From Blautia sp. (GTDB lineage Bacteria; Bacillota; Clostridia; Lachnospirales; Lachnospiraceae), in contig JALFGN010000089.1 in assembly GCA_022777285.1 (NCBI GenBank), positions 1-34,707 of the forward strand: DNA of 34,707 bases, read 5' to 3'. The notes below the pieces were generated by a model. The model did not search any database, had not been told where the DNA came from, and saw only the letters and a list, made by a program, of their open reading frames with translations. Positions 3,530 to 24,029 of this stretch are shown here, piece by piece. Position 1 is the first letter of the stretch, and every line of letters starts with the position of its first letter. The translations under genes and the position numbers were made by a program.

Positions 3530-5164
3530 ATGTCAGTTACGGTCAGAGAAGCTCTGGCAATGAAAGAATGGAAAGACTGCAGATTGATTGCCGGTGAAGA
3601 AGGATTGGATCGGGAGATTCATTATATTGACAGTATGGAAGTGCCGGATATTATCCCTTGGCTGAAAAAGGATGAATTGTTGATTACGACAGCCTATGCA
3701 GTTCGGGACAGTGAGGAACAGTTGTTGAATATTATCCGGGCACTGGGAAAGAATCAGTCTGCAGGAATTGCGTTAAAGACAAAATTTCTCGGGACGATTC
3801 CGGATAGTATTAAGAAAATAGCAGATGAGTTAAAGCTTCCTGTGATAGAGATCCCAAGAGACATGCCAGCTATCGATCTGACGAATCCATTGATGAAAAA
3901 AATTGTAAATTCTCAGAATAGAAAGCTGGAATTTAATAAGGCTATGAATGAAAAATTTCTGGCAGTCCAGATAGAAGGCGGGAGTTTTGAGGAAATAGGA
4001 AAAATTCTGGGGGAACTTCTTTCCTGTGAAATTCTGGTGGCAGACAGCAAACAGAATCTGATCTGTTACTTTCCGGAGCATGTCAGGGAACAGGAAAAGT
4101 GGGTAGAATTGGATACTTGTGGCGATAAGATCATAAGCAGAGCTCTGCGGGAATTTGCATTTCTGAATGGAGAGGGACTTGGTGTAAACAGAACAGACAC
4201 AGAGGAAATCTGGATTCACGGGGTTTATGTAAAGAATAAGTGCCATGGATATCTTTATGTAATTGGTAAAATGGGAAAATTCAATGAAATGAGTGAAATT
4301 GCTGTTCGTCAGGCAGCCGTTTATCTGGCATTGGAATTTTCGAAGCTTGGTCTGAAAGAACAGAAGGAATATTATCAGGATAATAATTTTTTTCTGGATC
4401 TGATAAGCAGTAATGTACTGACTGAAGAAGATGCTTTGCGTCGTGCAGGAAGGCTCCATTGGCCACAGTTTCCTTATTACATGGTAGTATCAGATATTGA
4501 CCGATTTGAAGGGATTACCAGAGGAAAAGAAGAAGAAGAAATTCAGGCAATCAAAGATGAAATCATGCAGATTCATAAAGACGTAGTAAAACAGAAAAGC
4601 AATTGTTTTTTTGTTGGAAATAAAAGTGACAGTTTTCATTGTCTTTTTACCGGACAGGCTGACAGAAAGGAAATCAGAGTATGTATGGAAGAAATCCAGA
4701 AGCAGATCAGCAGAGATTTCGGTTTGATTATAACTACCGGGATTTCCAGAGAAGTGCTGCGGTACTCGGATTTTGAAAAGGCATATAAAGAAACGAGAAC
4801 AGCAATTACCATCGGTAAAAAGAAAAGTAAAATGAAAATTTGTTTTATTGATGAAGTCCAGATGGAAGAAGGATTTTTCCAGATGGCGAAAATGGATGTG
4901 TTCCAAAAGTTTGTTTTGGATTCACTTCATATTTTGGAAGAATATGATGAAAAGCATGGAAGCTGTCTTCTGGATACCCTGCGTGTCCTTACAGAAAATC
5001 AGGGTGCCAGAAAAGAAACAGCAGATTCTTTATTTCTGCATAGGAATACATTAGCGTATCGTATTAGGCAGATTGAACAACTGACAGGATATGATTTGAA
5101 TGATCCGCAGACTCTTTTTAAACTGCAATTGGCAATAAAAGTAAATAGTTATATAGAAACCTGA
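3530..5164 (+). CDS. PucR-family transcriptional regulator
   Basis: 544 aa, the usual length for PucR/CdaR-type regulators. Residues ~1-125 form the PucR N-terminal domain (SVTVREALAMKEWKDCRLIAG ... PVIEIPRDMPAIDL). The middle holds a poorly conserved sensory / degenerate GGDEF-like region. The last ~60 residues are the PucR-type HTH (LLDTLRVLTENQGARKETAD, then LFLHRNTLAYRIRQIEQLTG). In characterised relatives this architecture activates catabolic operons for purines, amino acids or similar compounds. The start has GGAGG 8 bases upstream. It directly precedes the peptide-uptake operon, with a 17-bp perfect inverted repeat between them, so it is the obvious candidate regulator of that operon. 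The effector cannot be read from the sequence. Confidence 0.92.
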   Translation: MSVTVREALAMKEWKDCRLIAGEEGLDREIHYIDSMEVPDIIPWLKKDELLITTAYAVRDSEEQLLNIIRALGKNQSAGIALKTKFLGTIPDSIKKIADELKLPVIEIPRDMPAIDLTNPLMKKIVNSQNRKLEFNKAMNEKFLAVQIEGGSFEEIGKILGELLSCEILVADSKQNLICYFPEHVREQEKWVELDTCGDKIISRALREFAFLNGEGLGVNRTDTEEIWIHGVYVKNKCHGYLYVIGKMGKFNEMSEIAVRQAAVYLALEFSKLGLKEQKEYYQDNNFFLDLISSNVLTEEDALRRAGRLHWPQFPYYMVVSDIDRFEGITRGKEEEEIQAIKDEIMQIHKDVVKQKSNCFFVGNKSDSFHCLFTGQADRKEIRVCMEEIQKQISRDFGLIITTGISREVLRYSDFEKAYKETRTAITIGKKKSKMKICFIDEVQMEEGFFQMAKMDVFQKFVLDSLHILEEYDEKHGSCLLDTLRVLTENQGARKETADSLFLHRNTLAYRIRQIEQLTGYDLNDPQTLFKLQLAIKVNSYIET

Positions 5165-5187
5165 TTTAGGTAAAATAGATATCATTG

Positions 5188-5230
5188 TTCGTCATGCACA
5201 ATTTAGTGTATTAAAATTGTGCATGACGAA
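5188..5230. promoter_or_regulatory. 17-bp perfect inverted repeat, candidate PucR-type operator
   Basis: The left arm (5188-5204, starting TTCGTCATGCAC) and right arm (5214-5230, ending GTGCATGACGAA) are exact reverse complements over 17 bases around a 9-base centre. It lies just after the regulator gene and ends 2 bases before a probable -35 box. The centre is near -59 of the predicted start point, a usual place for an activator. It could also act as a hairpin ending the regulator transcript, but no solid T-run follows. Confidence 0.65.
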
Positions 5231-5232
5231 TA

Positions 5233-5261
5233 TTGTTTGTATAGGACAGATATGGTATCTT
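5233..5261 (+). promoter_or_regulatory. Probable promoter of the peptide-uptake operon
   Basis: TTGTTT (5233-5238), 17 bases, TATCTT (5256-5261). Both boxes are sub-consensus, as expected for an activator-dependent promoter. The leader to the start codon at 5425 would be about 155 bases. Confidence 0.4.
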
Positions 5262-5296
5262 TTTTTCAGCGGAAAAATGAATCAGTTGAGCAAAGG

Positions 5297-5349
5297 AGCT
5301 GCAGAGAAAAAAGTAAAGGAGACTTTATTTCGCATGCAGCTTTTCTATT
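5297..5349 (+). other. Possible leader hairpin before the peptide-binding protein gene
   Basis: AGCTGCA (5297-5303) pairs with TGCAGCT (5335-5341), with an inner AAAGT/ACTTT stem and a T-rich tail (TTTCTATTC). It resembles a weak terminator or attenuator inside the leader. No competing anti-terminator was worked out. Confidence 0.25.
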
Positions 5350-5424
5350 CATATTTCCAGAAGGATTTCCGGTAAGAGAGGAAGAGACCGGAAAAATATA
5401 TTGACATCGAGGAGGAAGAAGACG

Positions 5425-7098
5425 ATGAAAAAGAAAATACTTGCACTTTTTCTTGCGGGTACAATGGTAGTTGCCGGAATGGCCGGATGCGGAAGCAAAG
5501 ATAATGGCGGATCGGAAGATACCAAAGGCCAGGAAAGTACAGAGAGTCCGGAAGGTGAAGACACAGGAGAAGAATCCAAAGCAGTAGAAAACAAGGAAGC
5601 TACAATTGAAGTTCCGGATGAAGTGACTAAAGGAGGAGAACTGAAAATTGCCCTGACATCTTCACCGAAAAATCTGGATCCTGTAAAATATACAGGTACT
5701 TATGAATCGCAGATTATTTATCAGGTCTGTGATACAGTGGTTACCTATGACAAAGAACTGACAGAGATCCTTCCTTCACTGGCTACAGAGTGGACGATTA
5801 GTGATGATGGTATGGAATATACTTTTACAATTCGTGATGATGTGTATTTCCAGCCGGGACAGTATCAGGACGGAAGAAAGATGACAGCAGAAGATGTTGC
5901 ATACAGCCTGAATCGTTCCGCAACAGAATCTGCTATGAATCGTCTGGATATGCTGGATTACGCAGAGGCAGTTGATGAAACACACGTAAAAGCAGTTTTG
6001 AAAGCACCAAGTGCTGTATTCCTTACTGCACTTACCAACTCAGGAAATGCAGTTGTTCCGAAAGAAGAAGTAGAAGGATGGGGAGACGAATTCGGTAACC
6101 ATCTGGTAGGTACCGGCCCTTATGCAATGGAATCTTTCGAATTGGATCAGCAGGCAGTTCTGGTGAAAAATGATAAATATTTCCTGGGAGAGCCAAACCT
6201 GGATAAAGTAATCTTCAAAGTAATCACGGATCAGAATCAGGAAGCAAATGCTTTGAGAACCGGTGAAGTTGATATTGCTCTGCAGCTTACAGGAGAGACG
6301 GTTAAGATTGTAGCAGAAGACGAAACCGTAAATCTGTTGAAAAAACCTGGTATTCAGATTAATTACGCATATTTCAATATGGTAAATGGGCCGACAGCTG
6401 ATCCGAAAGTCAGAGAAGCGCTCATTAAAGCAGTTGATTACGACGAACTGGCAGCAGGTGTATATCAGTATGGAGAAGGTGAAGGTGCATGTCTTCCACT
6501 TCCAAAAGCTTCCTGGGGTTATGATGCATCCGTAGAAGCAGATGTTCCGGAATATGATCCGGAGGGAGCAAAGAAACTCCTTGAAGAAGCAGGATATGGA
6601 GATGGCTTTACATTAAATATGTATATTACAAATGAAACATTCCGTCAAAAAGCCTCTACAATTCTTCAGTCTTACTGGAAGATGATCGGTGTGGATCTGA
6701 AGATTAATACAGTGGAATGGGGAACCTTCAGTGAGACAGCAGCAAGCGGAAAAGCAGATGTATTTGCTATGGGATGGTCCTGGTATCCGGATCCGTATTT
6801 CTTCTTTGATAAAATGTTTGCATCTTCTGCAATCGGAACATTAGGAAACGGACAGGGATACAGTAATCCGGAGGTAGACCAGCTTCTGTCTGATGCATTG
6901 ATTGAAACCGATCAGGCAAAACGTGCAGAAATTTATAAGAAAGCCTTGAAACTTATCACAAATGATGATCCTGGTATTTTCTACGGAAACCCTGCAGAAT
7001 GTCTGGGAATCAGCCCGAAGGTACAGGATTTCAACCAGAGAGCAGATGGAACCGTCAAACTCTTCACATCAGAAGAAAATGTATGGCTTGTTCAGTAA
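5425..7098 (+). CDS. Peptide-type ABC transporter substrate-binding lipoprotein (family 5, DppA/OppA-like)
   Basis: 557 aa from the ATG preceded by GAGGAGG; an in-frame TTG 24 bases upstream lies before that site and is not the start. The N-terminus is a lipoprotein signal (MKKKILALFLAGTMVVAG, then MAGC lipobox), followed by an acidic Ser/Glu linker to residue ~55. The mature part is a family 5 extracellular solute-binding domain, with LKIALTSSPKNLDPVK near its start, DVAYSLNR, and VREALIKAVDYDELAAGVY. These proteins capture di/oligopeptides, nickel chelates or related compounds for uptake. The ligand here is unknown. It is first in the operon and followed by a hairpin that probably makes its transcript more abundant than the permease genes. 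Confidence 0.93.
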   Translation: MKKKILALFLAGTMVVAGMAGCGSKDNGGSEDTKGQESTESPEGEDTGEESKAVENKEATIEVPDEVTKGGELKIALTSSPKNLDPVKYTGTYESQIIYQVCDTVVTYDKELTEILPSLATEWTISDDGMEYTFTIRDDVYFQPGQYQDGRKMTAEDVAYSLNRSATESAMNRLDMLDYAEAVDETHVKAVLKAPSAVFLTALTNSGNAVVPKEEVEGWGDEFGNHLVGTGPYAMESFELDQQAVLVKNDKYFLGEPNLDKVIFKVITDQNQEANALRTGEVDIALQLTGETVKIVAEDETVNLLKKPGIQINYAYFNMVNGPTADPKVREALIKAVDYDELAAGVYQYGEGEGACLPLPKASWGYDASVEADVPEYDPEGAKKLLEEAGYGDGFTLNMYITNETFRQKASTILQSYWKMIGVDLKINTVEWGTFSETAASGKADVFAMGWSWYPDPYFFFDKMFASSAIGTLGNGQGYSNPEVDQLLSDALIETDQAKRAEIYKKALKLITNDDPGIFYGNPAECLGISPKVQDFNQRADGTVKLFTSEENVWLVQ

Positions 7099-7135
7099 TG
7101 CCTGAAATTTCTAAATTAATTTAAGAAGTAACACC

Positions 7136-7165
7136 GACGGACGTAGAAAACTACGTCCGTCTTTT
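7136..7165 (+). terminator. Intra-operon terminator after the binding-protein gene
   Basis: GACGGACGTAG (7136-7146) and CTACGTCCGTC (7151-7161) form an 11-bp stem with an AAAA loop and only four T residues after it. Placed between binding protein and permeases, it probably ends part of the transcripts and raises the binding protein to permease ratio. It may also block 3' decay. Confidence 0.8.
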
Positions 7166-7200
7166 ACCCTGGAAACAAAAATAAAAAAAGGAGGCATAAC

Positions 7201-8163
7201 ATGCTGAAGACAATATTAAAAAGAATTCTGCAGAGTATTCCAACATTATTTATTGTCATCACCTTTACCTTTATTCTTACGCGTATGATTCCCGGAAACC
7301 CTGCACTTACCATGTTGGGTCCTCAGGCACCAAAGGAATCTGTGGAAAAACTGGAAGAAGAGCTTGGTTTAAATAAAAGCAAAGGTGAGCAATATGTAAT
7401 TTATATGAAGAGTATCATGAAAGGGGATTTTGGAAGATCGTATTCTTACAATAAACCGGTAGTGGATCTGATTCTGGAACGCGTTCCGAATACATTGATC
7501 ATAACGCTTACCAGTCTCTTTATTGCTTTGATACTTGGTATGATTGTAGGAATCGTGTCAGCGGTTCATCAATACTCCATACTGGACTATATTTTTATGG
7601 TGCTTGCACTGATTGGTGTATCAATGCCGATTTTCTGGATGGGACTGATGCTGGTTCTGGTATTTAGTGTAAATCTTGGATGGCTGCCTGCTATGGGCAT
7701 GGGAGATGCTGCAAAAGGAGCCTGGGATGTGATCAGTCATATGATTCTTCCATGTTTCTGTCTTTCTACGATTCCTATGGCCACCTTTGCCAGAATTACA
7801 CGTTCCAGTATGCTGGATGTAGTAAACAGTGATTCTGTAAAGGCTCTTCGTGCAAGAGGTCTGAAAGAAGGCGTGGTGATCTGGAAACACGCATTGAAAA
7901 ATGCTCTTCCGCCAATTGTGACTGTATTAGGACTTCAGCTTGCATCTGCATTTACAGGTGCGATTCTTACAGAAAGCATTTTTGCATGGCCTGGAATGGG
8001 TACTATGATCGTCAGTGCAATTGATAACCGGGATTATGCTTTGATTCAGGGCGTGGTACTTTTTACAGCGATTGTATTTGTAGTCGTGAATCTGATCGTA
8101 GATATTGTCTATACGATCATTAATCCGAAAGTAAATTATGAAAGTGGGAATGGAGGGAAATAA
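7201..8163 (+). CDS. Peptide-type ABC transporter permease (DppB-like)
   Basis: 320 aa, normal for DppB/OppB. An N-terminal membrane span (ILQSIPTLFIVITFTFILTR) is followed by the family-typical MIPGNPALTMLGPQAP and an external loop. Five further spans follow, with the BPD transmembrane region and EAA-like loop near VKALRARGLKEGVVIWKHAL. It forms the heterodimeric channel with the next gene product. The start has AAAGGAGG 7 bases upstream. The next gene starts directly after its stop codon, so translation is probably coupled. Confidence 0.94.
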   Translation: MLKTILKRILQSIPTLFIVITFTFILTRMIPGNPALTMLGPQAPKESVEKLEEELGLNKSKGEQYVIYMKSIMKGDFGRSYSYNKPVVDLILERVPNTLIITLTSLFIALILGMIVGIVSAVHQYSILDYIFMVLALIGVSMPIFWMGLMLVLVFSVNLGWLPAMGMGDAAKGAWDVISHMILPCFCLSTIPMATFARITRSSMLDVVNSDSVKALRARGLKEGVVIWKHALKNALPPIVTVLGLQLASAFTGAILTESIFAWPGMGTMIVSAIDNRDYALIQGVVLFTAIVFVVVNLIVDIVYTIINPKVNYESGNGGK

Positions 8164-9060
8164 ATGGCAGAGACAAAGATTCTGAGCCAGGAAGCACATT
8201 CTCAGCTTGTAAAAAGAGAACGTCGCGCAAACAATGTATGGAACAAACTGAGAAGAAATAAGACAGCCATGATTGGTCTGGTGATTGTTGTATTTATGAT
8301 GGCAATGGCAATTCTGGCACCGATGATAGCAACCCATGATCCAAATGCCATTAAACCGTCAGAGACATATCTTGGTTTTGGGGAAAAGGGACATATTTTT
8401 GGAACCGATGAATTTGGAAGAGATTTATTTTCCCGTATTGTATATGGTGCAAGGATTTCATTGATCGCTGCAATCGGAGGAACTTTTGTAGGTGGAATCA
8501 TCGGAATCCTTCTGGGATTGATTGCAGGTTATGCAGGTGGAATTGTGGATGCAGTTATCATGCGTTTTATGGATGGGCTTCTGGCTTTTCCTTTTGTATT
8601 GCTGGCAATCATCCTTATGACTATTTTAGGTTCTGGTCTGCAAAATGTAATTCTTGCGATCGGAATCGGAAATGTACCGACATTTGCCCGTGTTGTCCGG
8701 GGACAGGTACATATTGTAAAAAATGAAGAATACTGCAATGCAGGGCGGGTAATCGGTATTTCAAATGCGCGAATGTTGTTCTGTCACATTCTTCCGAATA
8801 CGATTTCTCCTATTATTGTATATGCTACATTGAACGTGGCAGGCGCCATCATTTCAGAAGCTACGTTAAGTTTTCTGGGGCTGGGAATTTCACAGCCTAC
8901 TGCATCCTGGGGAAATATCCTGCGTGCAGGCAGAGATTGTCTGAATACAGCTCCCCATATAGCGACCATATCCGGTGTATTTATTCTTGTGACTGTACTT
9001 GGATTTAACCTGTTAGGAGACGGTGTCCGGGATGTGCTGGATCCAAAGATGAAGCGATAA
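8164..9060 (+). CDS. Peptide-type ABC transporter permease (DppC-like)
   Basis: 298 aa, normal for DppC/OppC. It has the OppC N-terminal segment (NKLRRNKTAMIGLVIVVFM, first span), then HIFGTDEFGRDLFSRIVYGARISL, a hallmark of this family. The five-span BPD domain follows, with an EAA-like loop around CNAGRVIGISNARMLFCHIL. The C-terminus reads NLLGDGVRDVLDPKMKR, as expected. The start codon abuts the stop of the preceding permease gene and has GGAGGG upstream. It pairs with the DppB-like subunit. Confidence 0.95.
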   Translation: MAETKILSQEAHSQLVKRERRANNVWNKLRRNKTAMIGLVIVVFMMAMAILAPMIATHDPNAIKPSETYLGFGEKGHIFGTDEFGRDLFSRIVYGARISLIAAIGGTFVGGIIGILLGLIAGYAGGIVDAVIMRFMDGLLAFPFVLLAIILMTILGSGLQNVILAIGIGNVPTFARVVRGQVHIVKNEEYCNAGRVIGISNARMLFCHILPNTISPIIVYATLNVAGAIISEATLSFLGLGISQPTASWGNILRAGRDCLNTAPHIATISGVFILVTVLGFNLLGDGVRDVLDPKMKR

Positions 9061-9091
9061 CAGAGGGAAGATTAGATAGCGAGGAGAAAAG

Positions 9092-10102
9092 ATGAGTAAC
9101 GACTTACTGAAAGTAAAAGACCTGAAGACTTATTTCTTTACTGCCAGCGGTGTATCAAAAGCAGTGGATGGTGTAAGCTTCACTTTAAAGAAGGGACAGA
9201 CCATGGGAATCGTGGGAGAGTCCGGATCTGGAAAAAGTGTGACAGCATCTTCCGTAATACGTCTGTTGCCGAAGATAGGAAAAATCGTTGACGGAAGCAT
9301 AAAGTTTGAAGGAAGAGATATACGAAATCTGAGTAAAAAAGAATTATTGAATTTCAGAGGAAAAGATATTGCAGTGATTTTTCAGGATCCTATGACCTCT
9401 CTTGATCCGGTATTTAAAATCGGTAATCAGATGGTGGAAATGATCTGTGCACATCAGAATGTATCAAAAGAAAAAGCAAGGAAAATGGCAGTAGAAGCGT
9501 TGAAAAAAGTAGGAATTCCACAGCCGGAGAAAAGGATGGATTCTTATCCTTATGAGTTGTCCGGTGGTATGTGTCAGCGTGTGATTATTGCAATGGCAGT
9601 ATGCTGCAAACCGAAAATGATCATTGCAGATGAGCCTACAACCGCACTGGATGTGACGGTTCAAGCACAGGTACTGGAACTTCTTCAGGAACTGCAGGAT
9701 GAAATGGATACTTCCATATTACTGATTACGCATAATCTTGGTGTTGTGTGGAAAATGTGTGATACAGTCATGGTTATGTATGCAGGAAAAACAGTCGAAT
9801 ATGCAGATGCAAAACAGTTATATGAAGAACCGCTTCATCCTTATACATGGGGGCTTCTGGACTCCATGCCAAAACTCAGTGATACAGTAAAGGGAGAACT
9901 GAAGGCAATTCCCGGTGTACCGCCGGATCTGCGTCTTACAGGGAACTGCTGCAATTTTTATAATCGATGTCCTTATGCAGCAGAAATCTGCAGCAAAGAA
10001 GTACCACCTTTATGTGAGGTAAAAGAGGGACATTTTGTGGCCTGTCACAGGCAGAATGGAAAAAATACACTGGTGAGAGGAGAGGGAAAAAATAATGAGT
10101 GA
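9092..10102 (+). CDS. Peptide-type ABC transporter ATPase (DppD-like)
   Basis: 336 aa. Walker A is GESGSGKS, the Q-loop is FQDPMTSLDP, the signature is LSGGMCQR, Walker B is MIIADEPTTALD, and the switch His is in LLITHNL. The C-terminal oligopeptide-family extension carries cysteines (NCCNFYNRCPYAAEIC ... VACHR) of the type that binds an iron-sulfur cluster in characterised DppD/DppF proteins; whether it does so here is inferred. The signature has Met-Cys where Gln-Arg is more usual (GGMCQR for GGQRQR), a common DppD variant. It overlaps the next gene by 8 bases. Confidence 0.95.
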   Translation: MSNDLLKVKDLKTYFFTASGVSKAVDGVSFTLKKGQTMGIVGESGSGKSVTASSVIRLLPKIGKIVDGSIKFEGRDIRNLSKKELLNFRGKDIAVIFQDPMTSLDPVFKIGNQMVEMICAHQNVSKEKARKMAVEALKKVGIPQPEKRMDSYPYELSGGMCQRVIIAMAVCCKPKMIIADEPTTALDVTVQAQVLELLQELQDEMDTSILLITHNLGVVWKMCDTVMVMYAGKTVEYADAKQLYEEPLHPYTWGLLDSMPKLSDTVKGELKAIPGVPPDLRLTGNCCNFYNRCPYAAEICSKEVPPLCEVKEGHFVACHRQNGKNTLVRGEGKNNE

Positions 10103-11072
10103 CAAAAAAGTAATTATGAAAGTCAGGAATCTCACCAAAGAGTTCAAGATACGAAGCAGAAAATTGGGAGAAAAACCGCAGATTCTTCATGCACTTACAG
10201 ATGTGTCCGTAGATATTTATGAAGGAGAAACGCTTGGTGTGATCGGAGAATCCGGATGTGGGAAATCTACTTTTGGAAAATGTCTTGTTCAGCTTCATCA
10301 GGCTACTCATGGTACGGTAGAGTATCAAGGGGAGAACATTCTCGGGTTAAAAGGAGAGGCTCTCAAAAAGATAAAACGGGATATTCAGATGGTGTTTCAG
10401 GATCCGTTTTCTTCTCTGGATCCCAGAATGACAGCAGGAAAACTGGTAGAAGAGCCTATGATTGCTCATAAGATTATAAAAGATAAAAAAGAAAGAAGTA
10501 AGAGGGCTTTGGAACTTCTGAAGACAGTAGGACTGGACGTACAGCATGTACATCGTTATCCCCATGAATTTTCAGGAGGGCAGAGGCAGAGAATCAATAT
10601 TGCCAGGGCGCTGGCACTGAATCCAAAACTCATTGTCTGTGATGAACCGGTGTCTGCTCTGGATGTATCGATTCAGGCGCAGGTTTTGAACTTGTTTAAT
10701 CAACTACAGAAAGAATATAAGCTGACCTATGTGTTTATTTCTCATGATTTAAGTGTTATTAAACACATCAGCGACAGAATTGCCATTATGTATCTGGGAA
10801 GAATCGTAGAATTGTGCGATGCACAGGGAATTTATGAAAATCCTCTTCATCCTTATACAAAAGCTTTGTTATCTGCAATTCCTCCGGAGTCTCCATTTGA
10901 AAAACGGGAGAGAATTGTACTGAAAGGGGAAATTCCAAGTCCGATCGGGGAACAGAAAGGATGCCCGTTGGCAGGCCGTTGTCCTTCTTGTATGGAAAAA
11001 TGCAGAAGCCAGGTTCCGCAGTTGAAAGACAGGGGAGATGGTCATCAGGTTGCCTGTTTTTTGTATGAATAA
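10095..11072 (+). CDS. Peptide-type ABC transporter ATPase (DppF-like)
   Basis: 325 aa. Walker A is GESGCGKS, the Q-loop is FQDPFSSLDP, the signature is FSGGQRQR, Walker B is LIVCDEPVSALD, and the His switch is in FISHDLSV. The C-terminal oligopeptide/dipeptide transporter segment has PLAGRCPSCMEKC with a cysteine set like its partner. DppD- and DppF-type ATPases form a heterodimer under the two permeases. The start ATG lies inside the end of the preceding ATPase gene behind GAGAGGGAAA, showing coupled translation. With this gene the transporter is complete. Confidence 0.95.
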   Translation: MSDKKVIMKVRNLTKEFKIRSRKLGEKPQILHALTDVSVDIYEGETLGVIGESGCGKSTFGKCLVQLHQATHGTVEYQGENILGLKGEALKKIKRDIQMVFQDPFSSLDPRMTAGKLVEEPMIAHKIIKDKKERSKRALELLKTVGLDVQHVHRYPHEFSGGQRQRINIARALALNPKLIVCDEPVSALDVSIQAQVLNLFNQLQKEYKLTYVFISHDLSVIKHISDRIAIMYLGRIVELCDAQGIYENPLHPYTKALLSAIPPESPFEKRERIVLKGEIPSPIGEQKGCPLAGRCPSCMEKCRSQVPQLKDRGDGHQVACFLYE

Positions 11073-11109
11073 GAAAAAATAAGTAAAGATAATAAAGGAG
11101 AGAAACGAA

Positions 11110-12369
11110 ATGAGCAATGTAACAAAAGCGCAGGTGCTGGAACTGGCACAGAGCAAGCTGGACGAGCTGGTAGAACTGGTGTCTCAACTGATTCAGATTC
11201 CAAGCGAGAACCCAGTAGGAACCCAGCGGGAAGTTGTGGATTTTGTGAAAAATTATTTGAAAGAGGCAGGAATTCCATGTGAAGAAACAGGAAGCAATCC
11301 TGAATTTCCATGTGTGGTTGCAAAAATCGGACAGGAAGAAGGATTCAGTGTGATTTTAAACGGACATGTGGATGTGGTTCCAGCAGGAGACAGAAATCAG
11401 TGGGATTTTGATCCTTTTTCCGGAGAAATTACAGAGAAAGAGATTCTTGGAAGAGGAACCTCCGATATGAAAGCCGGGGTAGCAGGAATTCTTTTTGCTA
11501 TGAAGATTCTGACAGAATCCGGTGCAAAGTTAAAGGGAAATATTCGCCTTCATATTGTCTCAGATGAGGAAAGCGGCGGAGAATTTGGAACGAAGTGGTT
11601 GTGTGCCAATGGTTATGCAGAACATGCAGATGCATGTCTGGTGGCAGAGCCGACTTCACATAATACCATTGAAATCGGACAGAAGGGAAGAGCAGAACTG
11701 ATTTTTAAATCTCATGGAGTCTCTGCTCATGGAAGTCTTGCCGGATTCAAAGGAGAAAATGCTATTCTGAAACTGATGAAAGTGCTGGAGCATGTGGATC
11801 TGTTAAGAGAAATCGAAGGGCATTATGGACCAACTCAGACCAAAGCACTGGAAAATTCCAAGATTATTGCAGGAGAAAAGAACGGAGCAGGAACCGGAGA
11901 AGTCATTGATCATGTATCGGTTAATGTAGGAATGATCGAAGGAGGTGTACGTCCAAATATGGTGCCGGATTCCTGCCAGGCAATTCTGGATATCCGTCTT
12001 CCAATCGGTGTGGAAGCAGAAGAAATTGAAAACTGTGTAAAAGTGATTCTTGAAAAGAGCGGTGTCAAAGGAGTGGATTATGAATTAAACTTCCAGACAT
12101 TTGGAAATTATACAGAGATCGACGCTCCAATTGTGGAAGCCATTAAAAAACATGCAGAAGATCTCTGGAAAACAGATGTACTTCCTGCATATCAGTGGGC
12201 ATCCAGTGATGCAAGAGATTATCGTGTAAAGGGAATTCCTACGATTCAGTATGGACCGTCCAATACCGTAGGTATTCATTCCTATAATGAAACAGTAGAT
12301 ATTGAAGATGTCAAAAATGCAGGACAGATTTATATTCTGTCTCTGTGCGATTTGATGGGAATTGAATAA
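11110..12369 (+). CDS. M20-family metallo-amidohydrolase/peptidase (ArgE/DapE/CPG2-like)
   Basis: 419 aa, the usual M20A length. The two-zinc site is complete: HVD (His86, Asp88), bridging Asp119 in GRGTSDMKAG, the Glu153-Glu154 pair in SDEESGG, Glu180 in LVAEPTS, and His390 in GIHSYNE. The lid/dimer domain has SAHGS near the middle. M20 enzymes hydrolyse peptide or N-acyl bonds, as in acetylornithine deacetylase, succinyl-DAP desuccinylase and carboxypeptidase G2. Sequence alone does not pick the substrate. It follows the DppF-like gene by 37 bases with GGAG upstream and lacks a signal peptide. It is therefore expected to act in the cytoplasm on the imported compound. Confidence 0.93.
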   Translation: MSNVTKAQVLELAQSKLDELVELVSQLIQIPSENPVGTQREVVDFVKNYLKEAGIPCEETGSNPEFPCVVAKIGQEEGFSVILNGHVDVVPAGDRNQWDFDPFSGEITEKEILGRGTSDMKAGVAGILFAMKILTESGAKLKGNIRLHIVSDEESGGEFGTKWLCANGYAEHADACLVAEPTSHNTIEIGQKGRAELIFKSHGVSAHGSLAGFKGENAILKLMKVLEHVDLLREIEGHYGPTQTKALENSKIIAGEKNGAGTGEVIDHVSVNVGMIEGGVRPNMVPDSCQAILDIRLPIGVEAEEIENCVKVILEKSGVKGVDYELNFQTFGNYTEIDAPIVEAIKKHAEDLWKTDVLPAYQWASSDARDYRVKGIPTIQYGPSNTVGIHSYNETVDIEDVKNAGQIYILSLCDLMGIE

Positions 12370-12395
12370 GAAAATTAAGGTGAGAGGAAAAAGTT

Positions 12396-13352
12396 ATGTT
12401 AGTAAAAGAAATTATCGATCTTTATGAAATTTTGGATTCTGCTTATGCCAGTGGAGCGAAAGTCGCTGAATTTTTGAAAAATATTCGTCCAGACTGCAAG
12501 GTTTCCGTAGAGACAATTCAGGGAAAAAAGGGAAAGACAACGGACGTTGTGAAAGTTCTGATCCCAGGAAAAAATGGAAAAACAAAAGACGGCACTGCAC
12601 CTACGATTGGGCTTCTGGGACGATTGGGAGGTCTTGGAGCGAGACCGGAAAGAATCGGTTTTGTATCTGATGGAGATGGTGCGCTGACAGTTCTGGCAGC
12701 GGCAGCGAAATTATTAAAGATGCAGAATGAAGGGGATGAGCTGGATGGAGATGTGATTATTTCGACTCATGTATGCCCAGATGCTCCAACGCAGCCTCAT
12801 AAACCGGTAGCTTTTATGGATTCACCTGTAAGTATGAAACAGATTAATCAGAGTGAAGTAGATGCTTCTGCAGATGCCATTCTGTCAGTAGACACAACAA
12901 AAGGAAACCGGATTATGAATCATAAAGGATTTGCAATCTCACCTACAGTAAAAGACGGATATATTTTAAAAGTCAGTGAAGACCTGTTGAGCGTGATGGA
13001 AATTACAAGTGGACAGTCTCCAAAAGTATTTGCTCTGAGCACACAGGATATTACTCCTTACGGAAATGGTCTGTTCCATTTGAACAGTATTCTTCAGCCT
13101 GCTACGGCTACAGAAGCACCGGTAGTCGGTGTGGCAATTACAACTGAGACAGCAGTTCCGGGTTGTGCGACAGGAGCTACCAGTATGGCATCCATTGACG
13201 AAGCAGGACGTTTCATTATTGAAGTGGCAAAAGCATTTACAAGGGGTGAATGTTCTTTCTACGATGCAGAAGAGTATGAAAGGATCCAGAAGCTGTATGG
13301 TTCTATGTCAAATCTCCGTACTTTTGGCACGATGGAGTGCAGTGCAGAATGA
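12396..13352 (+). CDS. DUF1177 family protein
   Basis: 318 aa, full length for this family as I recall it. There is no signal peptide or membrane span. Conserved-looking motifs that could bind metal or substrate are VSDGDGA (Asp92, Asp94), STHVCPDAPTQPH (His125, Cys127, Asp129, His135), SVDTTKG (Asp166) and NHKGF (His176). A later Gly-rich GVAITTETAVPGCATGA contains Cys257. The function is unknown to me. Family members are, from general knowledge, often next to AroM-like proteins and peptide transporters. It sits 26 bases after the M20 gene and overlaps the AroM gene by 4 bases. It is therefore firmly part of the operon, and an enzymatic role on the same compound is likely but unproven. Confidence 0.85.
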   Translation: MLVKEIIDLYEILDSAYASGAKVAEFLKNIRPDCKVSVETIQGKKGKTTDVVKVLIPGKNGKTKDGTAPTIGLLGRLGGLGARPERIGFVSDGDGALTVLAAAAKLLKMQNEGDELDGDVIISTHVCPDAPTQPHKPVAFMDSPVSMKQINQSEVDASADAILSVDTTKGNRIMNHKGFAISPTVKDGYILKVSEDLLSVMEITSGQSPKVFALSTQDITPYGNGLFHLNSILQPATATEAPVVGVAITTETAVPGCATGATSMASIDEAGRFIIEVAKAFTRGECSFYDAEEYERIQKLYGSMSNLRTFGTMECSAE

Positions 13353-14035
13353 AAATTGGAGCAGTGACAGTGGGGCAGGCTCCCAGAACGGATCTTACAC
13401 CGGATATTCTGCCTCTTCTGGGAGAGCATGTGGAATTTATGGAAAGAGGTGCACTGGATTTTATTACACCGGAAGAAATCTTACAGATTCAGCCGGAAGA
13501 GGGGGATTATGTACTGGTCTCACGTATGAGAGACGGAAGCCAGATAAGATTTGCAGAGCGAAAAATTTTGAATCGGATTCAGGAAGCAATAGAGGATCTG
13601 CAGAAACGTGGGGCGGAATGTATTCTTATGTTGTGTACCGGAAAATTTCCAAAAGCATTTCAGTCAGAAGTTCCGCTTATCTATCCTTATGATCTGCTGG
13701 GAGCGATTGTACCATTGCTGGCAGAAAATCGGGATGTTGCTGTGATGATTCCGGATAAAAGTCAGGAAAAACAGTGTGCCAGGCGTTGGAGCAGGCTGGA
13801 AGGAAGGGTTACAGTTGTAAGCGGTTCGCCCTATAAAGGCATCGAAGGAGTCAGAGAGGCAGCGCAGCAGATGAAAGGCGGAAGAAACAGTATGGTCATA
13901 TTGGATTGTATGGGATATACACAGGAAATGAAGAATGAGGTATGTCGTATTACAGGAAAACCGGTGATCCTTCCGAGAACGCTTCTTGCAAGAGTAGTAA
14001 GAGAATATATAGGAGAATGCTGTTCAAAGATATAA
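13349..14035 (+). CDS. AroM family protein (Asp/Glu racemase-like?)
   Basis: 228 aa from the ATG in the ATGA overlap with the DUF1177 gene. An in-frame GTG 12 bases upstream is less likely because GGAG sits at 13334-13337, fitting the ATG. The start MKIGAVTVGQAPRTDLTPD is typical of AroM. Two cysteine motifs stand out: Cys96 in LMLCTGKF and Cys187 in LDCMGYT. Their spacing resembles the two catalytic cysteines of cofactor-independent Asp/Glu racemases, a fold AroM may share. AroM takes its name from a gene under TyrR control in E. coli; its reaction is not known to me. It is last in the operon. Racemase or isomerase activity is my inference. Confidence 0.87.
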   Translation: MKIGAVTVGQAPRTDLTPDILPLLGEHVEFMERGALDFITPEEILQIQPEEGDYVLVSRMRDGSQIRFAERKILNRIQEAIEDLQKRGAECILMLCTGKFPKAFQSEVPLIYPYDLLGAIVPLLAENRDVAVMIPDKSQEKQCARRWSRLEGRVTVVSGSPYKGIEGVREAAQQMKGGRNSMVILDCMGYTQEMKNEVCRITGKPVILPRTLLARVVREYIGECCSKI

Positions 14036-14102: not shown

Positions 14103-14144
14103 TTATACATGTTTTATAAAGATTTTATAAATGGAGAAGTTTTG

Positions 14145-14669
14145 ATGGATGGAAATTCCTTATTGGAAAAAATAGTGGATACTTACCGTGCCAATTTTGA
14201 CGTGGTAGAACCTTATGAATACCATGGGGTTCTGTATGATGCCTATGCAGGATTTAACCTTACAAGTGCGAAATATGTTCTTGTAAAGAAGGCGGAACTG
14301 TGGCGGGCAAATTGTTTTGAACATGTTTTTTTCCTTTACAGACCAAGAATTACGCTTGCCGATGTGGAGCAATTTCAGAGTCAGCTCCTGGAATATATGG
14401 AGCCGGAGCTGGTATGTCAGGGAGAAAAGGTGCCAAAGAAAAATCATATGTATACGTATCTTACAGGAATTTTCCTGTCTGATGAACCGGCAGATCCGGA
14501 AGTGATAAAAGTAGTCAGAAAACTTCATTTCCGCAAAAATTATCGCTTTGCTGTGCGGGGATTTTCAGAAGAGCGGGTTGTTCTGTTTGATATAAAAAAC
14601 AGAAAAATCACAGGAAATCCTGCAGCAAAAGAGTTGATAAAAGGATATAAAAAAATGCTGAAGTCCTGA
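14145..14669 (+). CDS. Unrecognised 174-aa protein upstream of cstA
   Basis: I do not recognise the family. The ATG at 14145 is chosen because GGAG lies at 14133-14136; an in-frame ATG at 14109 falls on the predicted transcription start and has no ribosome site. The protein (MDGNSLLEKIVDTYRANFDV...) is soluble, with no signal peptide or membrane span. It is rich in Tyr, Phe, Lys and Glu, with segments such as YHGVLYDAYAGFNLTSAKYVLVKK and HFRKNYRFAVRGFSEERVVLFD that look like mixed alpha/beta structure. The C-terminus is basic (ELIKGYKKMLKS). It is 73 bases ahead of the CstA gene on the same strand with no terminator between, so it may be a regulator or partner of CstA. Confidence 0.75.
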   Translation: MDGNSLLEKIVDTYRANFDVVEPYEYHGVLYDAYAGFNLTSAKYVLVKKAELWRANCFEHVFFLYRPRITLADVEQFQSQLLEYMEPELVCQGEKVPKKNHMYTYLTGIFLSDEPADPEVIKVVRKLHFRKNYRFAVRGFSEERVVLFDIKNRKITGNPAAKELIKGYKKMLKS

Positions 14670-14742
14670 GGACAAAGAAAATCAGCTCTGTTTATAAAAG
14701 TAAAAACTTCATTACAAAAATACTTAAGAGGAGGGTAAAAAC

Positions 14743-16419
14743 ATGAGTGGAGTTTTAATTTTAGGCGTTTCTATTCTGGCTTTTGTGATTGCCTATGTAA
14801 CTTATGGTTCCTGGCTGGCAAAACAGTGGGGCGTTGACCCGAAGCAGCAGACTCCGGCACACACAGAAGAAGATGGTGTGGACTTTGTTCCTGCGAAAGC
14901 ACCGGTTCTTTTGGGGCATCATTTCTCATCCATTGCAGGTGCAGGTCCGATTAATGGTCCGATTCAGGCAGCGATTTTCGGATGGGTACCAGTACTTCTG
15001 TGGATCATCATCGGTGGTATTTTCTTTGGTGCTGTACAGGATTTTTCAGCATTGTTTGCATCGGTACGTCACAAAGGAAAATCTCTTGGTGAAGTTATCG
15101 AAGAAAATATTTCTCACAAATCAAAAGTATGCTTTACCGTGTTTGCATGGCTGGTTCTGATTCTGGTTGTTGCAGCATTTGCAGATATCGTAGCAGGAAC
15201 ATTTGCAGGATTTACAGTAAGCGCAGATGGAGAGATGGTAAAAAATGCAGCAAACGGTTCTGTTGCAGTAGCATCTCTGCTGTTCATTCCTCTGGCTGTA
15301 GGATTTGGATTCCTGAACAGAAAGAACATTAATCTTGGTGTTTCCACAATCGTAGGGGTTGCTTTGTTGGCTTTCTGTATCTTCGTAGGTCTGAAATGTC
15401 CAATTTTTGTTTCAAAAAATGTATGGCTGTTTGTAGTATTTATTTATATCTTTATTGCTTCCGTAGCACCGGTATGGATTTTGCTGCAGCCTCGTGATTA
15501 TCTGAACAGTTTTCTTCTGTACTTTATGATGATTGCAGCAGCAATCGGTATTATCTTTACAAATCCTACTGTACAGCTTCAGCCATTCACAGGCTGGAAC
15601 ATTAACGGACAGACACTGTTCCCATTTCTGTTTATTACGGTTGCCTGTGGTGCAGTTTCCGGTTTCCACAGTCTGATTGGTTCCGGTACAACATCCAAAC
15701 AGCTGAACAGTGAAAAAGATGCAAAAATGATTGGTTACGGTTCTATGTTGATTGAATGTGCATTGGCTGTCATTGCTCTGATCGCAGTTGGTTATCTGAC
15801 AAGTGACGGTGCTTATGCACAGATTGGAACACCTCCGGTTGTATTTGCAACTGCTATCAGTACTTTCTTTGCTGAAATGGGTATGGGAGAAATGGCAGTT
15901 AGCACTATGAAGACAATTATTCTTCTGGCAATCTCTGCTTTTGCTCTTACTTCGCTTGATACAGCAACACGTCTGGGACGTTTCCTGTTCCAGGAATTGT
16001 TTGCAACAAATAAAAATGGACAGAAGAACATTCTGAGCAATATGTATGTGGCAACATTTATAACAATTGCATGTTCCGCATTACTGACAATTGCAGGATA
16101 TCAGAAAATCTGGGCTCTGTTTGGTGCCTGCAATCAGCTGGTATCTGTACCTGCTTTCCTGGCAGTTGCATGCTGGCTCAAGAAAATCGGAAGAAACAAT
16201 AAGATGTTCTACTTCCCGATGTTCTTTATGCTTGCAGCTACACTGAGCACACTGGTTCTGACATTCAAGAACAACATTATCAAACTTACAGGCGGCGAGG
16301 GTCAGATGCTTGTAGAAGGTCTTCAGTGTCTTCTGATCGTTCCGATCGTTGTACTTGCTGTGATTATGGCAATCGACGGACTGAAAACTCTTTTTGGAAA
16401 AAATGTAAAAACTGCTTAA
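14743..16419 (+). CDS. cstA: CstA-family transporter (carbon starvation protein A type)
   Basis: 558 aa, a short CstA (E. coli CstA is about 700). It is a polytopic membrane protein with well over ten hydrophobic segments. Family hallmarks are present: GHHFSSIAGAGPINGPIQAA, FGAVQDFSALFASVRHKGKS, VSGFHSLIGSGTTSKQL, and SLDTATRLGRFLFQEL. CstA proteins have been linked to uptake of peptides and of pyruvate during nutrient limitation. The start is preceded by AAGAGGAGGG. It ends the unit, followed by a strong bidirectional terminator. Its place after a peptide-uptake operon suggests a shared starvation or scavenging role, but it has a separate promoter and operator-like site. Confidence 0.95.
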   Translation: MSGVLILGVSILAFVIAYVTYGSWLAKQWGVDPKQQTPAHTEEDGVDFVPAKAPVLLGHHFSSIAGAGPINGPIQAAIFGWVPVLLWIIIGGIFFGAVQDFSALFASVRHKGKSLGEVIEENISHKSKVCFTVFAWLVLILVVAAFADIVAGTFAGFTVSADGEMVKNAANGSVAVASLLFIPLAVGFGFLNRKNINLGVSTIVGVALLAFCIFVGLKCPIFVSKNVWLFVVFIYIFIASVAPVWILLQPRDYLNSFLLYFMMIAAAIGIIFTNPTVQLQPFTGWNINGQTLFPFLFITVACGAVSGFHSLIGSGTTSKQLNSEKDAKMIGYGSMLIECALAVIALIAVGYLTSDGAYAQIGTPPVVFATAISTFFAEMGMGEMAVSTMKTIILLAISAFALTSLDTATRLGRFLFQELFATNKNGQKNILSNMYVATFITIACSALLTIAGYQKIWALFGACNQLVSVPAFLAVACWLKKIGRNNKMFYFPMFFMLAATLSTLVLTFKNNIIKLTGGEGQMLVEGLQCLLIVPIVVLAVIMAIDGLKTLFGKNVKTA

Positions 16420-16478: not shown

Positions 16479-17141
16479 TTATAAAACGGTAAACAGATTT
16501 TTGGAGAAATCAATCATTCCTTCTTCTTTCATTTTATACAATTCTACGGTCATGGAACTGCGGTCTACAGAGAGATAATCAGCCAGCTGCTGTCGGGTAA
16601 GGGGTATGGAAAATGTCCGACTGCCGGTGATTCGCATTTGTTGTGAGAAATATTCCATAAGTCTGGTACGGATGGTATGAGGCGTGAGGCAGTCGATTTT
16701 CCTGGAAAAGTTCAGATTTTTCTGTGCAAGTACACCCAGGAGATTTCGAATCAGCCGAGTATGAAAAGGACAGGCAGAGGAACAGGTAGTAACAACACGG
16801 CTGAGATCGAGAAAAAGAATATCCGTATCTGTGATTGCTTTTGCTGTTCCGTCAAAGGCTGTCTGAGGAAGGCAGGCATAAATCTCCCCGAACAGATCTC
16901 CGGGTCCCAGGCGTGCCATCAGGGATTCCTTTCCCCAATAACTTTCCCGGATGATGTGGACATTTCCTTTTACGACCAGACCGATTTTTGTGATTTTATC
17001 GCCCCAGCGAAAAATAGAAACATTTTTGGGATAAGTTTTTACACTGCCGGACAGACAGTTCAGCATGGCAGACAGTTCTTTTTCTTCAATTCCTTGAAAT
17101 AAAGGAGAAAAAATTAGTTCTTTTACAGGTAAATCTTTCAT
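16479..17141 (-). CDS. Crp/Fnr-family transcriptional regulator
   Basis: 220 aa, normal length. The N-terminal cyclic-nucleotide-binding-like fold runs to ~residue 115 (GDKITKIGLVVKGNVHIIRE, GPGDLFGEIYACL). A helix with cysteines follows (TTCSSACPFHTRLIRNLL). The C-terminal winged helix has LTRQQLADYLSVDRSSMTVELYKMK. It lacks the N-terminal Cys cluster of Fnr, so a [4Fe-4S] oxygen sensor of the E. coli type is not indicated. The CxxxCxxH-like pattern could be a redox or heme/metal site, by inference. The start follows CGGAGG. It is divergent from hcp, sharing an operator-like repeat, so it probably controls hcp and itself in response to nitrosative or redox stress. Confidence 0.93.
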   Translation of the reverse strand: MKDLPVKELIFSPLFQGIEEKELSAMLNCLSGSVKTYPKNVSIFRWGDKITKIGLVVKGNVHIIRESYWGKESLMARLGPGDLFGEIYACLPQTAFDGTAKAITDTDILFLDLSRVVTTCSSACPFHTRLIRNLLGVLAQKNLNFSRKIDCLTPHTIRTRLMEYFSQQMRITGSRTFSIPLTRQQLADYLSVDRSSMTVELYKMKEEGMIDFSKNLFTVL

Positions 17142-17194
17142 GAAAAAACCTCCGTTTATGTTGTAGTTCCAACAGATACTTTTGTTTTTTTATA

Positions 17195-17223
17195 GTATAT
17201 TCCATTACAGATAAACAAATCAA
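17195..17223 (-). promoter_or_regulatory. Promoter of the Crp/Fnr gene
   Basis: On the minus strand TTGATT (17223-17218), 17 bases, TATACT (17200-17195). The inverted repeat at 17210-17230 covers the -35 box, consistent with autoregulation. Confidence 0.6.
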
Positions 17224-17230
17224 GTTTATC
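17210..17230. promoter_or_regulatory. Operator-like inverted repeat between the Crp/Fnr gene and hcp
   Basis: GATAAAC (17210-17216) and GTTTATC (17224-17230) are exact reverse complements around a 7-base centre. It lies in the 147-base divergent region, 58 bases before the hcp start. It is the best candidate binding site for the adjacent Crp/Fnr-type protein. It does not match the classic Fnr site exactly. Confidence 0.55.
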
Positions 17231-17288
17231 AGAAACGATTGGAAAAATGCTCCTAAAGGAGAAGAAATAGAAGGAGGATGTATGGATT

Positions 17289-18827
17289 ATGTTTTGTTAT
17301 CAGTGTGAACAGACAGCAGGATGTAGTGGATGTAAAGGAAAACAGGGGGTATGTGGAAAATCAGATGCAGTTGCGCAGTTACAGGATACTTTGACAGGTG
17401 CTCTGATCGGACTTGCACAGGCAGCAGGAGAAGAAAAAACATCCCCTCAGACAGATCGTCTTATGATAGAGGGATTATTTGCTACGCTTACAAATGTAAA
17501 TTTTGATGAAGAAGCTTTAAAAGAATTGATTCAGAAGGTACAGAAAGAGAAGGCTACAGCCGATTATGCTATGGAAAAACTGTGGAAAGAACCGGAGGAA
17601 GATATTCGTTCTCTGAAATCTCTGTTACTTTTCGGTATTCGGGGAATTGCCGCCTATGCATATCATGCAATGGTTCTTGGATATACAGATGAAACAGTCA
17701 ATCGATTTTTATATAAAGGAATGGCAGCGGCAGGACAGGAAAAAACAATGGAAGCTTTGCTGGAAATCGTAATGGAAGCAGGAGCTGTAAATCTAAAGTG
17801 TATGGAACTGCTTGATAAAGCCAATACAGAGACTTATGGAATCCCTGCACCCACAGAGGTCCCGCTGACTGTAGAAAAAGGTCCTTTCATTGTGATTACC
17901 GGACATGACCTGAAAGATCTGAAGGCGCTTCTGGAACAGACAGAAGGAAAAGGAATCAATATTTATACCCATGGGGAGATGCTGCCTGCACATGCATATC
18001 CGGAACTGAAAAAATATGCGCATCTGAAAGGAAACTTCGGAACTGCATGGCAGAATCAGCAGAAAGAATTTGCAGAACTTCCTGCTCCGATTCTTTTTAC
18101 TACCAACTGTATTATGCCTCCAAAAGCAAGTTATGCAGATCGGGTATTTACCACAGGAGTTGTGGGATATCCACAGATGCAGCATATAGGGGAAGAGAAA
18201 GATTTTACTCCTGTGATCGAAAAGGCACTGGAGCTTGGCGGTTTTGAGGAAGATCGAATCTTTACAGGAATCAATGGAGGAAGCAGTCTGACAACGGGCT
18301 TCGGACATCATGCGATTCTGGGAGCAGCAGAACAGGTGATAGATGCAGTAAAAGCCGGACAGATTCATCATTTCTTTCTGGTAGGAGGCTGTGATGGAGC
18401 ACGTACAGGAAGAAGTTACTATACAGATTTTGTAAAACAGGCTCCACAAGATTCCATCATTTTGACATTAGCCTGTGGAAAATACCGTTTCAATGATCTG
18501 GACCTTGGAAGCATCGGAGGTCTTCCAAGATTGATGGATATGGGACAATGCAATGATGCATTCGGCGCCATTCAAGTGGCAGTGGCACTGGCTGAGGCTT
18601 TTGGATGTGGAGTCAATGAATTGCCGCTTACTCTGGTGCTTTCCTGGTATGAACAGAAAGCAGTCAGTATTCTGCTCACACTACTGCATCTTGGAATTAA
18701 AAATATTTATCTTGGCCCGACTCTTCCGGCTTTCCTGTCATCCAATGTACGCAATTATCTGGTAGAGAATTTCCGGATTTCACCTGTAAGTACACCGGAA
18801 GAAGATCTCAGGAAAATCCTGGGCTAG
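17289..18827 (+). CDS. hcp: Hybrid cluster protein (Hcp)
   Basis: 512 aa. Hcp is an anaerobic Fe-S / Fe-S-O enzyme linked to NO and hydroxylamine detoxification and to protein S-nitrosylation. The N-terminal cluster cysteines are Cys3, Cys6, Cys15 and Cys22, with an extra Cys12. All eight hybrid-cluster ligands can be assigned: His206, Glu230, Cys274, Cys368, Cys396, Cys421, Glu455 and Lys457. Their spacing matches the Desulfovibrio enzyme as I recall it, to within one residue. No separate reductase (Hcr) gene is adjacent. The start is 11 bases after AAGGAGG; an out-of-frame ATG lies 7 bases earlier. It is divergent from the Crp/Fnr gene, its likely regulator. Confidence 0.97.
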   Translation: MFCYQCEQTAGCSGCKGKQGVCGKSDAVAQLQDTLTGALIGLAQAAGEEKTSPQTDRLMIEGLFATLTNVNFDEEALKELIQKVQKEKATADYAMEKLWKEPEEDIRSLKSLLLFGIRGIAAYAYHAMVLGYTDETVNRFLYKGMAAAGQEKTMEALLEIVMEAGAVNLKCMELLDKANTETYGIPAPTEVPLTVEKGPFIVITGHDLKDLKALLEQTEGKGINIYTHGEMLPAHAYPELKKYAHLKGNFGTAWQNQQKEFAELPAPILFTTNCIMPPKASYADRVFTTGVVGYPQMQHIGEEKDFTPVIEKALELGGFEEDRIFTGINGGSSLTTGFGHHAILGAAEQVIDAVKAGQIHHFFLVGGCDGARTGRSYYTDFVKQAPQDSIILTLACGKYRFNDLDLGSIGGLPRLMDMGQCNDAFGAIQVAVALAEAFGCGVNELPLTLVLSWYEQKAVSILLTLLHLGIKNIYLGPTLPAFLSSNVRNYLVENFRISPVSTPEEDLRKILG

Positions 18828-24028: not shown

Positions 24029-24029
24029 G

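Follow-up and report, generated by a model that had tools for sequence, protein, structure and literature searches.

A PucR-linked operon of Blautia that joins a peptide importer to M20, DUF1177 and AroM proteins: a candidate catabolic module

What does a complete peptide importer do in one operon with DUF1177 and AroM, two proteins for which no reaction is known? The question is raised by a contig of Blautia sp. (JALFGN010000089.1, assembly GCA_022777285.1), the whole of which, at 34,707 nucleotides, is called the window here. Between positions 3,530 and 14,035 a first-pass annotation, made from the sequence alone, had placed genes for a PucR-type regulator, a Dpp/Opp transporter, an M20 hydrolase, DUF1177 and AroM, and all of these were confirmed there by the listing of open reading frames and by Pfam and NCBIfam scans. 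The operon lies on the + strand throughout, from pucR to aroM, and its features are the following.

3530..5164, + strand: PucR-type transcriptional regulator, 544 residues (PF07905, 106.5 bits; PF13556 (HTH_30), 79.1; PF17853, 38.3)
5186..5232, no strand: inverted repeat in the pucR-oppA gap, 19-base arms with one mismatch and a 9-base loop, TGCACAA...TTGTGCA; candidate PucR operator
5425..7098, + strand: oppA/dppA-type solute-binding lipoprotein (PF00496 (SBP_bac_5), 290.8 bits; start and lipobox read from the sequence)
7136..7161, + strand: strong hairpin in the oppA-oppB gap, 11-bp stem and 4-nt loop
7201..8163, + strand: permease oppB/dppB (PF00528 (BPD_transp_1), 156.3 bits)
8164..9060, + strand: permease oppC/dppC (PF00528, 103.1 bits; PF12911, 55.6 bits)
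9092..10102, + strand: ATPase oppD/dppD (PF00005 (ABC_tran) and PF08352 (oligo_HPY))
10095..11072, + strand: ATPase oppF/dppF (PF00005 and PF08352)
11110..12369, + strand: M20 metallo-hydrolase, assigned to the ArgE/DapE deacylase subfamily (PF01546, PF07687 (M20_dimer), TIGR01910, conserved residues)
12396..13352, + strand: DUF1177 protein, predicted M42/M28/M20-like fold (PF06675, 447 bits; gathering score 25 bits)
13349..14035, + strand: AroM protein, assigned to the two-cysteine Asp/Glu/hydantoin-racemase superfamily (PF07302, 252.8 bits; gathering score 23.8)

We propose, with a probability of about 0.38, that the operon serves a regulated catabolism in which import is followed by epimerisation by AroM, by amide or ring hydrolysis by DUF1177 and by finishing by M20. 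PucR would control the importer, with the TTGTGCA palindrome at 5186-5232 as its probable site of action, and the importer would take up a small peptide-like compound that resists ordinary peptidases through its stereochemistry or a cyclic amide. AroM would act as a two-cysteine enzyme of the racemase superfamily and epimerise an alpha carbon; DUF1177, as an amide hydrolase with a zinc-exopeptidase fold and a rearranged site, would cleave the amide or open the ring; and M20 would turn the linear dipeptide or N-acyl product into amino acids. A 2,5-diketopiperazine is the first candidate for the substrate class and a hydantoin-like compound the second, because of the genes that adjoin DUF1177 elsewhere: racemases, DUF917, HyuA, a carbamoylase, cyclodipeptide oxidase (CDO), and M20, M29-like and PepE peptidases. 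Cyclic dipeptides form readily from peptides.

Genome surveys supply the firmest part of this argument. The first-pass annotation had called for a survey of conserved co-occurrence and would have been refuted by a lack of conserved linkage, which surveys of 398 genomes, 130 loci and plasmids did not bear out. Among 398 genomes of the same phylum as the source of the window, DUF1177 (PF06675) was present in 46 and AroM (PF07302) in 45 at an E value of 0.001, or in 41 after removal of four genomes with weak matches only (G052, G088, G200, G226). The two occurred together in 36 genomes, far above chance (odds 250, Fisher p 1.3e-36, a test whose p values take no account of genome relatedness). They lay within 5 kb on the same strand in 28 of the 36, on different contigs in seven and 43 kb apart in one. 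DUF917 (S-Me-THD_C) was found in 64 genomes, 23 of which also had DUF1177 (p 7e-9). Seven of 61 genomes of relatives, the source genome counted, carried DUF1177; in 14 control genomes it was confined to Haloferax volcanii and Sulfolobus acidocaldarius, as was S-Me-THD, and AroM to E. coli and H. volcanii. DUF1177 was further confirmed at no fewer than 586 places of a species-level genome collection and on 7 of 72,556 plasmids, and it occurs in archaea. The neighbourhoods taken from three of the seven plasmid matches hold Opp, ArgE/DapE, DUF1177 and AroM (Paenibacillus, the genes of the window in a different order), OPT, DUF1177, AroM, PepE and a racemase (Sodalis), and an ABC importer, DUF917, DUF1177, AroM, an aminopeptidase and a racemase (Salinigranum, an archaeon). 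From these surveys DUF1177 and AroM form a single module together with an importer and a peptidase, in many cases with PucR as well, much as had been supposed from the window.

Profile comparison places AroM in the Asp/Glu/hydantoin racemase superfamily. Aligned with PF01177-type racemases from the neighbourhoods, it gave an hhalign probability of 96.9% (E 1.7e-10, 149 columns), as against less than 1% with the OppC, DUF917, M29-like and c12 sets. Counted from GTG 13337, its cysteines C100 (kept in 80 of 81 sequences) and C191 (79 of 81) are aligned with the two cysteines that all 49 PF01177-type racemases have, so that on this alignment both would occupy the two catalytic positions. A sequence search of the Protein Data Bank (PDB) with AroM returned nothing (best E 0.15). 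The racemase view of AroM had already been derived from predicted structures (PMC11055893).

DUF1177 was assigned to a fold by modelling. An AlphaFold2 model built with 51 sequences reached a pLDDT of 87, compared with 35.5 from the single sequence, and is confident in showing the overall fold of the M42/M28/M20 zinc exopeptidases (MH clan). The dimetal site of that clan is made up of His/Asp/Glu/Asp/His. Residues D92, D94, D166, D218 and H228 of DUF1177 are invariant, and H125, C127 and H135 are kept in 114-116 of 117 sequences; by topology and conservation, D92/D94 and D166 fall at the positions expected for two of the acidic ligands. In contrast to M42/M28/M20 enzymes, the motifs that would carry the His and Glu ligands appear by topology to be replaced by GRLGGxGARP and THxCPxAP. 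No sequence kinship was detected by hhalign with M42 (0.41%, 13 proteins) or with two M20 sets (0.55% and 0.20%), nor with the M29-like, AroM, racemase and other sets; the highest profile score, 6.4% with PucR, was treated as noise. The PDB sequence search likewise gave nothing (best E 0.53).

For the third cytoplasmic protein the first-pass annotation had claimed an M20 enzyme with all zinc ligands, and this held: H86, D119, E153, E154, E180 and H390, the zinc and catalytic residues of such enzymes, do not vary among the 18 distinct relatives compared; the metal site comprises H86, D119, E154, E180 and H390. The protein passes the curated cut-off of the ArgE/DapE model TIGR01910 (268.8 against 217.6 bits).

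The neighbourhoods of DUF1177 are variable in a patterned way. They were drawn from 60 stretches and 80 further loci, the latter the best 80 of at least 586 DUF1177 relatives and thus leaning to close relatives; exclusion of loci that lacked a DUF1177 frame or shared its last 200 residues reduced 133 loci to 130, some of which end at contig edges, and neighbouring genes were labelled with profiles made from the first locus set (60 stretches). Within 9 kb of DUF1177 were found AroM (77 loci), PucR (62), a PF01177-type racemase (53), an M29-like peptidase (49), DUF917 (48), OPT (47), any M20 (44) and an Opp permease (33). By importer, 46 loci have OPT only, 32 Opp only, one both, five a Liv-type importer and 46 none of these. 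The OPT-only loci usually carry DUF917 (37 of 46) and an M29-like peptidase (36), and M20 in ten; the Opp-only loci carry M20 (26 of 32) and AroM (22), an M29-like peptidase in eight and DUF917 in one. With Opp and M20, the operon of the window falls among the latter. The claim that M20 belongs to the system is borne out at most Opp-only loci and not as a constant, since M20 occurs at 44 of the 130 loci and M29-like or PepE peptidases stand in elsewhere; peptide-type uptake by Opp, complete in the window, is likewise one import route among several (Opp, OPT, Liv-type or none). In a FastTree phylogeny of 125 DUF1177 proteins, 13 changes of the OPT/Opp state are required, and, set against all other rows, starred branches of the tree force at least five changes for Opp and at least seven for OPT; by these counts, the importer beside DUF1177 has repeatedly been replaced by one of another type. 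The peptidase slot varies too, with PepE in L183, L188 and the Sodalis plasmid, and a dipeptide-like intermediate would explain a slot filled by M20, M29-like or PepE enzymes.

Closest to the operon of the window is locus L127 of an uncultured Lachnospiraceae (87% identity in DUF1177), whose gene content and gene order match those of that operon and which is cut at its left end; next nearest by DUF1177 are L116 and L117, from the same genus. Three further arrangements were noted. A DUF3100 membrane protein, an M20 gene and a smaller frame of 154-163 residues lie near DUF1177 in L187 (1610-5057), the locus scanned with Pfam, with similar frames in L193, L136, L137 and L139, and DUF3100 is possibly a further importer type. 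In a Sutterella contig (L186, 8318-13354) two DUF1177 genes flank a racemase and are followed by OPT and AroM, a pairing that may point to hetero-oligomers or to two specificities. The c12_286 family (~280 residues) occurs at 12 of the 130 loci, for example L068, L149 and L178; its C-terminal Cys-Cys-His-Cys set is conserved in 10 sequences, and the member in L080 has no Pfam match.

As for regulation, the PucR protein has both the PucR N-terminal domain and the C-terminal HTH_30 domain by Pfam. Across the loci, no 7-mer is more enriched than TTGTGCA/TGCACAA in the intergenic DNA that adjoins pucR genes (29 of 95 stretches against 4.2 expected), and paired half-sites with at most one mismatch each occur in 27 of these 95 stretches (23.6 kb) and in 25 of 799 others (187 kb). 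The pairs precede Opp, OPT and Liv-type importers; some of the 25 other stretches lie upstream of DUF1177 (L136, L137, L139) or of M20d-Opp genes (L132, L133). A search for TGCACAA-N(3-17)-TTGTGCA found one site in the source genome, that at 5186-5232. In 52 genomes with DUF1177, the two arrangements of the exact palindrome gave 8 and 13 distinct sites, against 0 and 3 for reversed-pattern controls. Exact palindromes stand at the DUF1177 locus only in G141, G000 and G410, and the idea of an operator specific to the DUF1177 module is weakened, as most of them lie elsewhere; TTGTGCA may rather be a wider PucR half-site that serves several PucR paralogues. It presumably differs from the PucR box of B. 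subtilis. Palindromes away from DUF1177 were seen at G006:C6:43591-45406 and, in identical copies, on contigs C71, C93, C95 and C96 of G045; they may belong to a mobile element or mark a further target of PucR. Literature searches on PucR with peptide transporters and on ring opening found nothing beyond one review on hydantoins.

The layout of the operon agrees in most respects with what had been described. The importer is complete by Pfam, with a family-5 binding protein, two permeases and two ATPases with oligo_HPY tails, and it is joined to the three cytoplasmic proteins by short gaps and overlaps, as claimed. Gaps below 40 bases hold from oppB onward (0, 31, -8, 37 and 26 bases, then the overlap) and fail earlier, with 260 bases between pucR and oppA and 102 between oppA and oppB. 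The first of these is counted to the oppA ATG at 5425, which is preceded by AGGAGG at 5410 and is a likelier start than the TTG at 5401 that opens the longest frame. Similarly, the reported 4-base overlap of DUF1177 and aroM stands with ATG 13349 (ATGA) and becomes 16 bases with GTG 13337, from which the aroM frame is already open. The oppA-oppB gap (7099-7200), which holds the hairpin at 7136-7161, has a folding z of -5.86, and the hairpin is likely a partial terminator or a stabiliser of the binding-protein mRNA. A hairpin after the binding-protein gene is a usual means of making more binding protein than permease.

In the source genome, 93% complete at 2.72 Mb, DUF1177 and AroM each occur once. 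It gave no match to PF06032 (DUF917), PF20906 or PF19585, a search that for hydantoinase-related proteins covered PF06032 and PF20906. Its sole PF01177 match is a glutamate racemase by TIGR00067, which leaves AroM as the only candidate catabolic racemase found, and the operon looks like a stripped-down version of the module.

Several observations weigh against the proposed pathway. The substrate cannot be read from the sequence, and with PF06032 and PF19585 unmatched in the source genome the case for a cyclic amide depends on other loci. DUF1177 matches its fold without support from sequence, and by topology three of the customary metal-site motifs seem altered, so that on the model the protein could be non-hydrolytic. 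AroM is more than 9 kb away or missing at 53 of the 130 loci (some of them cut by contig ends), including the same-genus L116 and L117; L116/L128 and L117 share the operon and have a gene other than AroM after DUF1177, as judged at the locus itself. None of the three importer types was found at 46 loci. A link between Opp and M20 independent of descent was not demonstrated in a comparison that, with four pairs on starred branches, was underpowered. Finally, PF19585 and DUF1177, in 10 and 46 of the 398 genomes, share three, which is not significant (p 0.10), and CDO as a general partner of DUF1177 is unsupported as a rule.

The best placed of the alternatives, doubtful as a whole, dispenses with a ring. 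Linear dipeptides of unusual stereochemistry or linkage (D-, beta- or iso-) would be imported, AroM would racemise the released or terminal residue, and DUF1177 would be a dipeptidase or an accessory subunit. Opp and OPT importers, peptidases of several families and the racemase-type AroM all suit this, as does a source genome in which neither DUF917, PF19585 nor a second catabolic racemase was found, and for the Opp/M20 branch it stands close behind the best reading. It leaves unexplained, however, the DUF917, HyuA, NCS1, carbamoylase and CDO neighbours elsewhere. In L168, L181, L195 and L202 an NCS1-like permease is joined by HyuA-like and DUF917 genes, and L181 and L195 also have a carbon-nitrogen hydrolase; in L195, the locus on which Pfam was run, the HyuA proteins match PF05378/PF01968 and the permease PF02133. 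A TIGR01879 carbamoylase lies near DUF1177 in L087 (genome G045), and the CDO subunits PF00881 and PF19585 lie near it as a fusion in L141 and as two genes in L170; PF19585 was also found in G045 and on contig C50 of G215. The best NCBIfam models for the DUF917 neighbours are named thiohydantoin desulfurase, with scores below the model cut-offs.

A wider version of the proposed pathway, which we consider unlikely, would see in DUF1177 an amide hydrolase of a new class, zinc-exopeptidase in fold and new in its active site; with AroM it would form a widespread, importer-independent core for cyclic dipeptides or amides in bacteria and archaea, of which the operon of the window would be a stripped-down form.

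Use of hydantoins or N-carbamoyl peptides, with AroM as hydantoin racemase, DUF1177 as a hydantoinase-like enzyme and M20 as N-carbamoyl amino-acid hydrolase, seems to us distinctly unlikely. The kinship of AroM to PF01177-type racemases and the HyuA, NCS1 permease, carbon-nitrogen hydrolase, TIGR01879 carbamoylase and DUF917 genes that adjoin DUF1177 at part of the loci speak for it. Against it, the M20 of the window passes the ArgE/DapE model TIGR01910, and TIGR01879 (N-carbamoylase) is absent among the 25 listed of its 55 NCBIfam models; the source genome has no PF06032 match; and hydantoins are not known as substrates of Opp. Still less probable is a catabolism of N-acyl amino acids or opine-like compounds by Opp and an ArgE/DapE deacylase, in which DUF1177 and AroM would act on the released part only. 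The type of the M20 enzyme agrees with it, as do agrocinopine binders among the 50 PDB matches of the solute-binding protein, which include many peptide binders, but the module can do without M20 (present at 44 of 130 loci), and DUF1177 is kept beside other peptidases. That DUF1177 and AroM are housekeeping proteins placed by chance behind a peptide transporter, as AroM without DUF1177 in E. coli and DUF1177 among genes unlabelled by the profiles in L092, L097, L099 and L100 might suggest, is hardly credible and largely refuted by the co-occurrence counts, given that DUF1177 is patchily distributed (46 of 398 genomes) and that the tight linkage recurs in further phyla, on plasmids and in an archaeon.

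The system had been called undescribed, which was too strong. AroM, DUF917, PF01177 racemases and Opp/OPT importers were reported as enriched round CDOs, which are reported in Blautia and Clostridium too, and these neighbours were interpreted either as modifying hydantoin or allantoin in purine metabolism or as belonging to secondary metabolism (PMC11055893, Nat Commun 2024). The CDO clusters without a cyclodipeptide synthase (non-CDPS) of that article share AroM, PF01177 racemases, Opp/OPT importers and peptidases with the module. Unlike them, the source genome has neither a match to the CDO subunit CDOB (PF19585) nor one to DUF917 (PF06032), which is enriched in such clusters and not required, and the constant elements here are DUF1177 and AroM; DUF1177 was not found in a search of the text of that article.

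Other known systems also share features with the operon. Like hydantoin utilisation (hyu) systems, it combines a racemase-superfamily enzyme, an M20-fold hydrolase and an uptake protein, but it has no hydantoinase, its M20 is of the ArgE/DapE subfamily and its importer is Opp. It shares the regulator family with PucR-controlled purine and ureide catabolism, but no purine genes were seen in it. Dpp/Opp uptake operons with a dipeptidase have the complete importer and a cytoplasmic M20, to which DUF1177 and AroM are added here. Among 5.39 million open-access papers one was found to name DUF1177, on fungal DUF1996 proteins, and a search of the open literature for named cyclic-dipeptide hydrolases or catabolism found only work on caprolactam degradation. 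New here are DUF1177 as a core with AroM, its predicted fold, the two importer/peptidase architectures, the residue-by-residue equivalence of the AroM cysteines, the candidate operator and a minimal form of the module without detected DUF917 and CDO. With a defined pair of proteins in which residues of interest can be named, a candidate operator and a host amenable to genetics, the gap is open to direct experiments.

In the window as a whole, terminator-like sites number 17 against 8.1 expected (sd 3.2), promoter-like sites are at chance level (26 against 25.8), and an Rfam search gave no match. Upstream of pucR lie EF-G, an EF-Tu-like frame identified by eye and a protein whose zinc-ribbon match is below threshold. 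Directly after AroM, at 14109-16419, a 186-residue frame without a Pfam match is followed by a CstA family transporter that may be a functional neighbour. A prismane (hybrid-cluster) protein gene is divergent from a Crp-like regulator at 16479-18827. At 23042-25319 an alpha/beta hydrolase precedes a protein that matches PapA_C (31.8 bits) and AATase (25.7) barely above the cut-offs, an unusual pair.

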